Shown piece after piece: positions 11,669 through 15,599 of a stretch of 38,356 nucleotides of DNA. Position numbers and translations under genes: made by a program. Under the pieces are notes generated by a model. The model did no database searches. It was not told the origin of the DNA and worked only from the letters and a program-made list of their open reading frames with translations. Source of the DNA: a virus; IMG/VR virus record IMGVR_UViG_3300031730_000195, positions 1 to 38,356 of that record, one strand, 5' to 3'. Position 1 is the stretch's first letter. The number at the start of each line of letters is the position of its first letter.

Positions 11669-11766
11669 CGGCAGGGTGGGGGGGTTCTACGGAATATCCG
11701 AAAGGGCTACATTTCAGGCACGCTGTGTGACAGACCGAGCCGATGCAGGTTCACACGCAGCAGGAG

Positions 11767-11799
11767 CGCCCGATGCAGCACACGCTGGTCGGGCGTTTT
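11767..11799 (+). terminator. terminator before the Q-like gene
   Basis: CGCCCGA (11767-11773) pairs with TCGGGCG (11789-11795) across a 15-nt loop and is followed by TTTTGCTTT. It would end the early right transcript 28 bases before the Q-like start codon, or act as an antitermination target. The 100 bases before it hold no gene and no convincing promoter. Confidence 0.65.
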
Positions 11800-11827
11800 G
11801 CTTTGTGAACCACAGGAGGCGGAACGG

Positions 11828-12253
11828 ATGGCGCGGATCGAAGACATCGAGCGGCGGTTGCAGAACTGGGCTCGCTGGAAGCTGGGTGCGACCCACAGCG
11901 GCCTCGGCTACGCGTCCATGCGCTGGGACGGCGGCATCCGCACCCCGGGCAATCGCGAGTCCGTCGTGCCCACCATTGACTGCGAGGCGGAGGAGACCAA
12001 CCGGGCAGTGATGGCGTTGGAATCACGCCTGCGCGCCACGGTTGAAGTGGTCTACCTGCAGGGCTGCAGTATGCGCCAGAAGGCGCTGCAGTTGTGCTGC
12101 GGTGAGCCGGCGGTTAAGGCCCGTGTGTGGCAGGCGCACCGATCGCTGTCGCACTGGCTGGCGGCGACAGCCCAGGCGGCACGCAATGAGCGTGAGCGGG
12201 TCGAATCCCTCCAAACCTCGAAGTTCGTGACGTGCCCCGGTGAGTATTCCTGA
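11828..12253 (+). CDS. Q-like late regulator with sigma-region-4-type HTH
   Basis: Likely switch to late gene expression. It has 141 residues; ATG 11828 is favoured over an upstream frame extension because AGGAGG ends eight bases before it. Residues ~72-111 (VEVVYLQGCSMRQKALQLCC, then AVKARVWQAHRSLSHWL) look like a sigma-factor region 4 helix-turn-helix, as seen in ArpU/Q-type late activators. The N-terminal part (IERRLQNWARWKLG) is also typical of Q-like antiterminators of beta-proteobacterial prophages. It is the last plus-strand gene before the AT-rich reverse cassette, and the structural genes begin after that, in line with a Q role. Whether it antiterminates or activates initiation cannot be told. 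Confidence 0.75.
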   Translation: MARIEDIERRLQNWARWKLGATHSGLGYASMRWDGGIRTPGNRESVVPTIDCEAEETNRAVMALESRLRATVEVVYLQGCSMRQKALQLCCGEPAVKARVWQAHRSLSHWLAATAQAARNERERVESLQTSKFVTCPGEYS

Positions 12254-12323
12254 AATATATCCAAGGGAAATAGCATCAAGCGCGAATAGGAGTGATCAAT
12301 TGATTGCGAATAGAAGATAGGTA

Positions 12324-13469
12324 CTAAATTAGCGGCTTCTGGATGTTGATTTGCTCAGTGTCGGAATCATCGCTGATTACGTCGCCGCCCGCTGTTGGGA
12401 TGGCGGTGCTCTTTGTCTCGGTGGAGGCGCTAGCCTTTGATCCGCCTATTGGAAGCGTAGTTCGCTTGACCCCGACAAAGTCTGCGAACACGCCAAGAAT
12501 TGATCGCACCTCTAGCGAGAGCTGTAGCGAATCAATTCCCACTGTCGCATGCGCAGCTGTATCCAGGTCCCTGGCCGCACTAAAGAGATGTTGAGAGTTG
12601 TGTTCGCGCATGAAATATTCAGCAACTACATCAGCTCGAATTTCGGAAAACCTCTTGTTAAGTTGCGCCCTAGCCTGCGCGGCAATCGCTTTTCCATTCT
12701 GCATATCTTCAGACAAGGCGAACAATGCGGTGTCGATGCTTGTCTTAACCCGCCCATCCCCTGCGTCACCATAAATCACTCCGTCAACCACGCCTTTGAA
12801 TCGCATATCAGCCTCTTCAAAGACAAAGCGTTCCAGGGCGGAGTCAAGAGCAATGCAGGCAAGTGCAGCTGTAAAAAGTGCGCAGCGGACAGCGATTTCT
12901 CGGTGTTGGAGTCGAACCTCTGCTCGTTCAGCGAAAAATCGGAATGCAAACATAGTTTTGTTGAACGCAGGGAAACCGCTGAGACTTGCAACTGCCGACT
13001 TGGCATCACCCAGAATTCGTAGCCAGTCGCCATCCTGCTTGTGGGCTGGATAGGCCGCCACCAATTCAGCAAATTCCTCCATGGTCATGCGACGTTCCAT
13101 GCTCAATTTTTTCCCTAGTCGATCGAGAAAACTCTTTGACAGGACGGCAATCTTTTGAGCCTGTGCGAACCGGGTAAGCGTAGGATTGGCGTCGGTGGTG
13201 GCAATCACAGCCCGATCGCAGTTCAATGCTGCCTGTACACCCTTGACCCACAGGACTCGCTCGAACGCCTTTGGGGATTTTTTGTTCTTGACATCCACAA
13301 TGCCCCGAATGCGAGCACTCGCAGCTTGTCGGGAGTAGAGCCAAACATCGAGATCCGTGACATCTTCCGAGTCAAATCGATAAGGCACGGATCGCAACAC
13401 GAAGAATCCTTGGCGAGTAAAATATTCTCTTACAAGTTCCTCCAAAACTGGGCCTTTGCTGGGTGCCAT
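12324..13469 (-). CDS. PD-(D/E)XK nuclease-like protein of accessory cassette
   Basis: A 381-residue protein whose first ~95 residues fit the restriction-endonuclease-like fold. An alpha-helix carries Glu10/Glu11 (LEELVREYF), an aromatic strand follows, then Asp41 in TDLDVW, Asp59-x-Lys61 in IVDVKNKK, and a helix RVLWVKGVQA with Gln79, before a strand with AVIATTD. This order (E - D - DxK - K/Q helix) is that of Mrr/RecB-type nucleases. The remainder is helical, with a hydrophobic segment ~193-212, and a Ser/Thr-rich disordered C-terminal tail. ATG 13469 has GGAGG five bases upstream and starts one base after the preceding stop, so it is coupled to the 425-residue partner. GC is visibly lower than in flanking phage genes, indicating transfer. 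Homology to a named defence family is not recognised. Confidence 0.85.
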   Translation of the reverse strand: MAPSKGPVLEELVREYFTRQGFFVLRSVPYRFDSEDVTDLDVWLYSRQAASARIRGIVDVKNKKSPKAFERVLWVKGVQAALNCDRAVIATTDANPTLTRFAQAQKIAVLSKSFLDRLGKKLSMERRMTMEEFAELVAAYPAHKQDGDWLRILGDAKSAVASLSGFPAFNKTMFAFRFFAERAEVRLQHREIAVRCALFTAALACIALDSALERFVFEEADMRFKGVVDGVIYGDAGDGRVKTSIDTALFALSEDMQNGKAIAAQARAQLNKRFSEIRADVVAEYFMREHNSQHLFSAARDLDTAAHATVGIDSLQLSLEVRSILGVFADFVGVKRTTLPIGGSKASASTETKSTAIPTAGGDVISDDSDTEQINIQKPLI

Positions 13470-13470
13470 G

Positions 13471-14748
13471 TCAACCTCCGCTTCGCAAGCGATCTAGAGC
13501 ACCAGTTATGAACTTAGCATCGTTCAACGTGTGCTTCTGTCGAATTTGGCGACGCGTCTCCGCTGGGCCTTTGAAGTTACGTGCTGCAGATCCATCCATC
13601 AACATTGCCTCCGCCGCACCTACGCCCCCTTGAACGATGGTGAGGGCTAGTTCCCCTACGTCCTTCTTTAGTAACTTCATAGTGAATCTGTTGGAGCGTT
13701 TTGGGGTGACTTTCACAACCTGACGTTTTTCCAGTTCCCGATAGTCTTCGCCAATAGCCTGTACCCCTGTTGGGCCGCCGACTTCATCGCCTTCAATGAG
13801 TTTTCTCAAAAGCGCAGCAGGCATCGTAATGTTGCCGCGTCTGGTTGTGCTTCTTGTCATGCCATAAGTAAGAGAAGCAAGCAGAGCTTTGGCGTCATCG
13901 ATCGGGTCATCCTCGAAGGGGCGACCGTACTTCTGAAATGAATCCGGTGAAGTCAGGTATCCAACAGCTTCGGTGCTGTTGCTTACTTCAAGACGATCAA
14001 AGAGGCCAACTCCAACCAACCGACTATAGAGTTCACCGCCTAAAATTTTGTGTGCCTCTTGGTCATGTACAGCCCCACGTTGAGACAGCAGTGCTTGTAC
14101 TTCCTTTAGGCGTGATTGCTCGGCGACAGTCAACCCTTCCATCAGGTGGTAAGCCTTCCTTGCGTACTTCGCGTCGCGGAAGGTGTTATTGTTGAACAAA
14201 ATGATGCGGCCTTTATCTTCGGCTTCATCGACGATTGCGGTCAGTTTGCAGACGTCGATCAACTCGCTTGCCTGAGTTGGTCGGATGTCGAACAAGTCTG
14301 AAATTTTGCTGATAACTTCAGCTTTCACGGATGGGCGCTGCGCGACCATCTCCGAGAGATGAAGGACCGCTTCCTCTTCGTCCGACGGTTCACAGGAGTC
14401 GAAGATTGATGCGGTCGTTTCCAATACCGCTGTTGCCGTGGCACCGATTACGGCAACAGAGCCGCCTGCTGCTCTGTCAATGCGGCCTTCTTCTTGCAAT
14501 CGCTGCAGGCCGGCTTCTCTAGCCGCACGATCAATGCCATTCAACTGGCAGATGTTCTTGACTTCGTCCGAGCCAATGGTCGGGACTGCCACGCCTTGCA
14601 CGTTCCGGCGTAGGAGGTTGTACAGCCGGCCAGTCCGACCAGCGTACTGAATGTTCTCCAATCGCCCAGCACCGCTGACCGCGTCCAAGCTTTTGGACTG
14701 TGCCAGGAGCCAAGCGCCTTTGCTCTTCGTGTCCAGTTCGTGAGTCAT
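13471..14748 (-). CDS. 425-residue partner protein of accessory cassette, unknown family
   Basis: First gene of the two-gene cassette. I do not recognise a family. The sequence looks like several small helical domains: a possible winged helix at ~55-101 (IGSDEVKNICQLNGIDRAAR, then LQEEGRI), a central alpha/beta stretch at ~176-270 (GRIILFNNNTFRDAKYARKA and YLTSPDSFQKYG), and another winged-helix-like part at ~296-370 (SLTYGMTRSTTRRGNI, RELEKRQVVKVTP). No P-loop, protease triad, membrane segment or nuclease motif is evident. It might sense DNA or protein and direct the nuclease encoded one base downstream. It has its own promoter-like boxes upstream and no strong ribosome site (GGGG nine bases before ATG). 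Composition is AT-richer than phage neighbours. Confidence 0.85.
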   Translation of the reverse strand: MTHELDTKSKGAWLLAQSKSLDAVSGAGRLENIQYAGRTGRLYNLLRRNVQGVAVPTIGSDEVKNICQLNGIDRAAREAGLQRLQEEGRIDRAAGGSVAVIGATATAVLETTASIFDSCEPSDEEEAVLHLSEMVAQRPSVKAEVISKISDLFDIRPTQASELIDVCKLTAIVDEAEDKGRIILFNNNTFRDAKYARKAYHLMEGLTVAEQSRLKEVQALLSQRGAVHDQEAHKILGGELYSRLVGVGLFDRLEVSNSTEAVGYLTSPDSFQKYGRPFEDDPIDDAKALLASLTYGMTRSTTRRGNITMPAALLRKLIEGDEVGGPTGVQAIGEDYRELEKRQVVKVTPKRSNRFTMKLLKKDVGELALTIVQGGVGAAEAMLMDGSAARNFKGPAETRRQIRQKHTLNDAKFITGALDRLRSGG

Positions 14749-14784
14749 GGCTTGCTACCCCGATTAGCTCTCTGGCGCGGCTCG

Positions 14785-14812
14785 ACTATAGCCCTGCAAC
14801 GCGGGTTGTCCA
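14785..14812 (-). promoter_or_regulatory. sigma-70-like promoter of the nuclease cassette
   Basis: On the minus strand TGGACA (14812-14807) and TATAGT (14790-14785) are separated by 16 bp; each differs from the consensus at one position. Predicted transcript start is near 14778, about 30 bases before the ATG at 14748. This is the clearest promoter in the phage part of the window and would allow expression in the lysogen independent of phage late control. Confidence 0.7.
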
Positions 14813-14930
14813 GCACGAGCCCACGGCGGAGCGCCGATGGGCGGTAGGTTTGCCTGTGTAGTCGCATTGGCATCACCACAACGATCACGATGGCGAGAAC
14901 GCCAAGCTGCAACTCCCCTCGGGACTGGAA

Positions 14931-15599
14931 ATGCGCGTTTACTGGACCAGCACCATCACTCAAGTACTGGCTGAGTCTGCGCGCCTGTACCCGCAGTTCC
15001 AGTTCACCTGCGCCAAGGCCCTGACCGACACCGTGCGCCTGGTGCAGGCGGCCATGCCTGCCCATCTGGAGCGCACGCTGGACCGCCCGACCCAGTTCAC
15101 TAAAGCCGGCTTCTTCATCCAGCCCGCCCGCAAGGACACCCTCACCGCAGTGGTGGGCGTCAAGGATCGCCAGGCGCAATACCTGGCCTACCAGGTGGAA
15201 GGCGGCACCCGCGCCCCGGCGAGGCAGGCCCTGCGCCTACCCAGCGTGGTGGATCTGAACGAGTCCGGCAACCTGCCCGCCGGCCTGATTCGCCAATTGG
15301 TGGCACGGGCCAGGGCAGGGCGCCGCGCCACCGGCCGCCAGTCGCAGCGCTTTGGTGTCAGCAGCGCGGTGGACCTGTTCTACGGAGAGCCCGGCGACGG
15401 CCGTCCCGCCGGCCTCTACAAGCGTGTCCCCTTGGGCCTGGGTCGCGAGCAATTGGTGCCCCTTGTCGTGATGCCCAAGCAGCCCGCCCACTACGAACCC
15501 CGCTTCGACTTCCATGCCGAAGCACAGCGCATCACCGAACGCGAGTTCGAAGCCGCACTCGATCGCGCCTGGCAGCAAGCCGTGGCCACCGCCCGCTGA
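14931..15599 (+). CDS. putative neck/minor tail protein, gp10/Z-like
   Basis: A 222-residue protein I identify only tentatively. The pattern resembles HK97 gp10 / lambda gpZ tail-completion proteins: an N-terminal helix pair (KALTDTVRLVQAAMPAHLER), a strand region with QARKDTLTAVVGVKDR-like spacing and an EGGTRAP turn, and a terminal helix (ITEREFEAALDRAWQQAV). No such gene is found at the usual place between the FII-like and U-like genes further on, which is why I favour this reading. It starts at ATG 14931 with only a weak GGGACTGGAA ribosome site. It is the first plus-strand gene after the accessory cassette and precedes the terminase. An alternative is an unrelated phage protein of unknown role. 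Confidence 0.65.
   Translation: MRVYWTSTITQVLAESARLYPQFQFTCAKALTDTVRLVQAAMPAHLERTLDRPTQFTKAGFFIQPARKDTLTAVVGVKDRQAQYLAYQVEGGTRAPARQALRLPSVVDLNESGNLPAGLIRQLVARARAGRRATGRQSQRFGVSSAVDLFYGEPGDGRPAGLYKRVPLGLGREQLVPLVVMPKQPAHYEPRFDFHAEAQRITEREFEAALDRAWQQAVATAR

Follow-up and report, generated by a model that had tools for sequence, protein, structure and literature searches.

A winged-helix protein and an Mrr-like nuclease encoded by an inserted phage cassette form an obligate, mobile pair that is probably an uncharacterised anti-phage system

DpnI and related fusion enzymes recognise N6-methyladenine through their winged helices, and these winged-helix type IV endonucleases (PMC11037411) are the nearest described build to the two-gene cassette reported here, whose genes we call A and B. 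Like A and B, DpnI and HhiV4I (PMC11037411) join a winged helix functionally to a PD-(D/E)XK nuclease and have no partner methyltransferase. However, they do so in one polypeptide with one winged helix, whereas A and B are two proteins with four winged helices between them, and in B, unlike in these enzymes, the nuclease is Mrr-like and is followed by a helical domain. In fold and catalytic residues, B's N-terminal domain agrees with nucleases of the Mrr/MspJI/AspBHI and Can2/Card1 types. In contrast to those nucleases, no SRA or CARF sensor domain was found in B, and a sensor role would sit in a separate protein. Nuclease–protease pairs recur in several defence systems, among them AVAST, Hachiman, and Lamassu (PMC12799240). 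Lamassu (LmuABC) and the three-component PDC-M68/ABC systems, in which nuclease effectors also occur, are frequent direct neighbours of the pair. Unlike in those systems, no SMC/ABC ATPase is present in A or B, nor near most copies, the one described here among them. Temperate phages also carry accessory defence genes, for example in the P2/P4 hotspots (PMC9122126); the pair resembles those passengers, although it was not itself seen in the consulted main-text passages of that paper.

The window, meaning the whole stretch of DNA that was analysed, is the viral contig IMGVR_UViG_3300031730_000195 (38,356 bases). The features that bear on the cassette are as follows.

11798–12253, plus strand: Q-like (antiterminator) gene, left edge of the insertion, its 3′ end within or at the inserted DNA
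12203–14930, no strand: inserted DNA (moron), 2.7 kb without counterpart in the related viral contig L093
12324–13469, minus strand: gene B, 381 aa, Mrr-like PD-(D/E)XK nuclease domain followed by an all-helical domain (open reading frame call and AlphaFold)
13471–14748, minus strand: gene A, 425 aa, four predicted winged-helix domains (open reading frame call and AlphaFold)
14812–14785, minus strand: possible sigma-70 promoter of the pair, TGGACA-16-TATAGT, about 37 bases ahead of the A start codon
14931–15599, plus strand: minor tail protein gene, right edge of the insertion (phrog_1924, E 4e-42)

A single base (13470) separates A from B, which is second in order. A first-pass annotation, made from the letters alone, had described a minus-strand gene pair with this one-base gap, richer in AT than its flanks and set between a Q-like gene and a structural operon of the other strand. 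Each part of that description agrees with our analysis. The open reading frames fall exactly where it placed them, and the GC content of positions 12254–14748 is 52% versus 67% for the window. The neighbours on both sides read on the plus strand: the Q-like gene, which has weak similarity to the antiterminator-Q locus of Variovorax phage VarioGold, to the left, and the minor tail protein, terminase small subunit (phrog_57), and terminase large subunit (phrog_15) genes to the right. The annotation had also credited the pair with its own near-consensus promoter. The site is suitably placed, but the scan returned two promoter-like sites versus 1.4 ± 1.4 in shuffles, and the candidate is therefore no better than chance.

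Comparison with relatives establishes that the cassette is an insertion in the phage. The tail gene of L093 is 90% identical to that of the window, and the cassette is absent from it. The alignment of L093 covers window positions 11695–12202 and resumes at 14931, and some 29 bases separate these blocks. The insertion thus parts two phage genes, Q-like and tail, that abut in L093, and the Q-like gene likewise lies directly before the tail gene in the relatives L094–L101. Positions 12203–12253 of the window hold the last Q-like codons, past the end of DNA similarity to L093. A search for terminal repeats was negative: the two ends of the insertion have no 9-mer or longer in common. A and B are the only genes in the inserted DNA, which contains no SMC-like or ABC ATPase. 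The cassette has the features of a prophage moron: it is missing from close relatives, it has its own orientation and composition, and the same layout recurs in unrelated phages.

The AlphaFold model of B (pLDDT 88.9) comprises a nuclease domain (residues 1–125) and a helical domain (130–335). By structure alignment, the nuclease domain superimposes on AF1548 with a Z score of 13.4 (rmsd 2.8 over 112 residues), and it matches a Can2-type CRISPR ancillary nuclease (Z 11.9), EndoMS (Z 11.3), and AspBHI (Z 10.2). The structure also resembles the modification-dependent restriction enzyme MspJI and the nuclease domains of Can2/Card1-type CRISPR effectors. No match to the helical domain was seen within the whole-B structure search, and sequence searches returned no relative of A or B among solved structures. 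Window B matches the Pfam model Mrr_cat weakly, below its cut-off, and 30 of the 80 B members match it, with a best E of 1.6e-5. None of the 80 members departs from nine residues (E10, D39, D41, D59, K61, E70, R195, G234, and R336), and the full set of catalytic residues is kept in 80/80 homologues. The predicted structure and the 80-member alignment thus show both the fold and the E...D...(D/E)xK set of Mrr-like PD-(D/E)XK nucleases. These data bear out the earlier proposal that the second gene has a PD-(D/E)XK-like core, and the nuclease fold that the first-pass annotation had looked to structure prediction to find is present in B.

The model of A (pLDDT 80.5) has winged helices at approximately residues 56–104, 121–188, 206–268, and 306–362. 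Only the second (121–188) is clearly matched by the structural aligner, with Z up to 9.6; the first, third, and fourth are assigned from predicted secondary structure and sequence pattern. Window A has no Pfam match, in keeping with the earlier description of a first gene of no recognised family with possible winged-helix parts, of which AlphaFold predicts four. Foldseek with A returned generic winged-helix matches only (RPC62, SelB, and ScpB), all with E > 0.001, and we therefore claim no kinship with ScpB/KITE proteins. Across the family, the fourth winged helix (WH4) is basic, the second (WH2) is acidic, and the overall charge of A is neutral. Given that neutrality and the acidic WH2, some of the winged helices may bind protein rather than DNA. 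The charge pattern suggests that WH4 would bind DNA and that WH2 would make a protein contact.

A special case of a stand-alone defence system is two-subunit type IV (modification-dependent) restriction, in which A would read a modified base and B would cut nearby. Type IV enzymes that depend on N6-methyladenine are known to combine a winged helix with PD-(D/E)XK (PMC11037411), B resembles AspBHI and MspJI, and no recurrent cognate methyltransferase lies beside the pair in the neighbour scans. However, the described enzymes fuse both domains in one protein, and searches with the libraries used detected no sequence similarity of A to them. We regard this version as a tentative possibility.

Searched singly in viral contigs, phages, and PHROGs, window A and B returned nothing, and neither matched a PADLOC, NCBIfam, or PHROGs model. 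The family was opened only by plasmid tblastn and profile searches. tblastn located the pair on plasmids of Vibrio parahaemolyticus, Mesorhizobium amorphae, and Rubrobacter, and a family profile built from plasmid pairs then gave at least 80 genomic loci and seven viral loci. Plasmid rows were left out of the alignments for structure prediction. At every locus whose contig extends beyond A, the gene that follows is B, always separate and never fused; at the four loci that lack B, the contig ends there. The A–B gap is −4 bases in 54/87 loci and −1 in 24/87 (together 78/87). Independent searches for A and for B in the same 398 Pseudomonadota genomes found the same six, with the two genes adjacent each time. 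Pairwise distances in A and B are correlated at r = 0.95, a value reached in 0 of 1000 permutations. A and B are thus an obligate pair that behaves as one unit, and the co-occurrence elsewhere on which the first-pass annotation had staked its proposal holds wherever a contig is long enough to show it.

This arrangement recalls AbiE, in which a winged-helix antitoxin gene precedes a toxin gene and the effector is a nucleotidyltransferase. As in AbiE, the winged-helix gene comes first, the effector second, and the genes overlap. Unlike in AbiE, the effector is a PD-(D/E)XK nuclease, and A is far larger and without a family match. The pair could accordingly be an abortive-infection or toxin–antitoxin-like module, in which A represses the operon and restrains B until infection frees it, leading to degradation of host nucleic acid and cell death. 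The tight operon with a winged-helix gene in front, the pairing that is obligate both ways, and the presence of the pair on plasmids and prophages are as this model would predict. However, A is large for such a role (~425 aa, four winged helices) and its sequence is better conserved (mean column identity of 52% versus 39% for B), no operator is conserved upstream of A in its closest relatives, and homology of A to AbiEi was not found, with only 1/76 A members touching it, at E 0.016. Sequence cannot separate abortive infection from direct restriction, but taken together these features make a toxin–antitoxin-like module rather unlikely.

The pair is mobile. Its A tree intermixes 13 phyla, and includes one Lokiarchaeota metagenome-assembled genome (MAG) for which a binning error is possible. 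Its distribution is patchy: it occurs in about 1% of sampled Pseudomonadota species (6 of 398 genomes) and in 0 of 295 further sampled genomes of Bacteroidota, the phylum of the Pedobacter seed. Besides plasmids, it occupies unrelated prophages. In a Mu-like prophage (L086), it lies between the head maturation protease and minor head protein genes, and in two P2-like elements (L087 and L088) between the baseplate and tail-completion genes, in each case opposite to the structural operon; unrelated phages of at least three types carry the pair inserted on the opposite strand. At L091 and L092, the pair sits beside an integrase. In L086, the pair is followed by a third gene in the same orientation (12383–13264, 294 aa, phrog_16442, function not assigned). 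A is broken by stops or frameshifts in L043, L050, L073, L077, and L111, a sign of decay after acquisition.

In scans of its neighbouring genes, the pair adjoined or lay close to GajA/GajB, Lamassu, PDC-M68, and a type IIG restriction enzyme. Using whole-genome gene counts in 50 pair-carrying genomes and a distance of 10 kb, 5 of 12 copies of GajA (Gabija) fall near the pair versus 0.05 expected (binomial p ~1e-9), as do 4 of 6 strong copies of LmuB (Lamassu) versus 0.03 expected (p ~1e-8), p values that must be read with the genomes not being fully independent of one another. HSDR_N is near the pair in 3 of 30 copies versus 0.18 expected, and housekeeping HSP70 in 0 of 79 versus 0.36. LmuB was counted only under 1e-90 (6) or 1e-29 (14), because its low-stringency profile also picks up housekeeping SMC proteins, matching them in 13/14 control genomes. 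On the A tree, the Gabija neighbourhood requires a minimum of four changes, PDC-M68 three, and Lamassu two. Single loci have other company: downstream of the pair, Lysobacter antarcticus carries a gene for a Schlafen group 3 helicase (L012:12785–14878) and Lichenicoccus roseus one for a RelA/SpoT-domain protein (L007:12772–13866).

The same surroundings bear on whether the pair serves defence at all. Its role could lie in DNA repair, recombination, or replication, with its travel on mobile elements a matter of chance, since EndoMS/NucS-like and Can2-like nuclease folds are known in repair as well as in defence. Against this stand the very patchy distribution, the overrepresentation of Gabija and Lamassu, but not of housekeeping HSP70, in the vicinity, and the opposite-strand passenger siting in unrelated phages, and we consider a role outside defence very improbable. 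Siting in defence islands does not prove function. Nevertheless, the prophage insertions and the Gabija/Lamassu excess are the co-occurrence with prophages and defence islands for which the first-pass annotation had proposed to look.

Because the pair directly adjoins Lamassu or PDC-M68 clusters in 12 loci, and only in those 12, it might instead be an accessory module of SMC/ABC-type defence (Lamassu, PDC-M68/ABC-3C), to which A and B would supply a DNA reader and a nuclease. A Lamassu operon, LmuA-LmuC-LmuB, begins 65–86 bases past B in L018, L021, L022, and L059 (profiled in L021), and PDC-M68B ends 15–115 bases ahead of A in eight loci (L030, L031, L034, L036, L038, L055, L057, and L084); the minimum of two and three tree changes, respectively, is also consistent with such a link. 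We keep this alternative under consideration because the pairs described in PMC12799240 show that two-gene effector modules are common to several systems. However, most other loci, phage-borne ones included, have no such cluster in their neighbourhood, and Gabija neighbours the pair about as often, in keeping with a general defence island. An accessory role thus appears improbable. Upstream of A at the PDC-M68 loci lie PDC-M68A, a small gene of 82–96 aa, and PDC-M68B (DUF2326/CTD10, LmuB-like); the L055 contig holds only PDC-M68B of these three. These loci, whose hosts belong to several families and include one Planctomycetota MAG, resemble a composite mobile unit.

The pair is probably an uncharacterised anti-phage defence system because its genes are inseparable, it recurs unnamed across phyla, and it is often found beside known anti-virus systems. 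Profiles of PADLOC-DB 2.0 (2023), whose scope does not extend to the newest DefenseFinder and preprint systems, gave no match to window A or B, and over 76 A and 80 B members they gave scattered matches in a few (best E 0.011 and 2.7e-4). No published description of the pair was found by accession or domain terms, in a literature coverage that leaves preprints and most subscription papers outside. The first-pass annotation had proposed that the pair, with its nuclease, is a prophage-borne system of defence or exclusion not yet described, and the match to a named system that could have overturned it was absent from PADLOC-DB; the co-occurrence, the nuclease fold, and the defence neighbours likewise support it. 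Our preferred reading, to which we assign a probability of roughly 0.6, is that A and B form a stand-alone two-protein system against phages or other foreign DNA, carried as a prophage passenger, with B as the effector and A as a DNA-binding protein that licenses it.

Our analysis allows us to outline how such a stand-alone system could work. B would be the effector, acting as an Mrr-like PD-(D/E)XK endonuclease. A would be a winged-helix array that binds DNA, most likely via the basic WH4, and also binds B, and it would license B to cut on meeting a feature of incoming DNA. Direct cleavage of DNA by B and recruitment by A are what we infer from the predicted folds. Candidate triggers include a base modification, a DNA end or replication structure, and a phage protein. 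No methyltransferase accompanies the pair, and discrimination of self from non-self would therefore come from the trigger rather than from self-methylation. The pair would be expressed from the lysogen and would act against competing phages or plasmids. As a more speculative extension, which we think doubtful, a tandem winged-helix A that reads foreign DNA and licenses a separate nuclease might work alone in prophages and also be a shared effector module of SMC-type sensors (Lamassu, PDC-M68).

None of the HMM libraries used here to annotate genomes and call defence systems contains either family, and the A and B profiles built here are ready to be added to defence finders. If confirmed, the pair would be an unnamed two-gene immune system present in many bacterial phyla and possibly one archaeon. 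It would exemplify the use of winged-helix arrays as DNA readers separate from the restriction-type nuclease that they serve, and it would offer an easily testable case of a phage-carried system directed against other phages.
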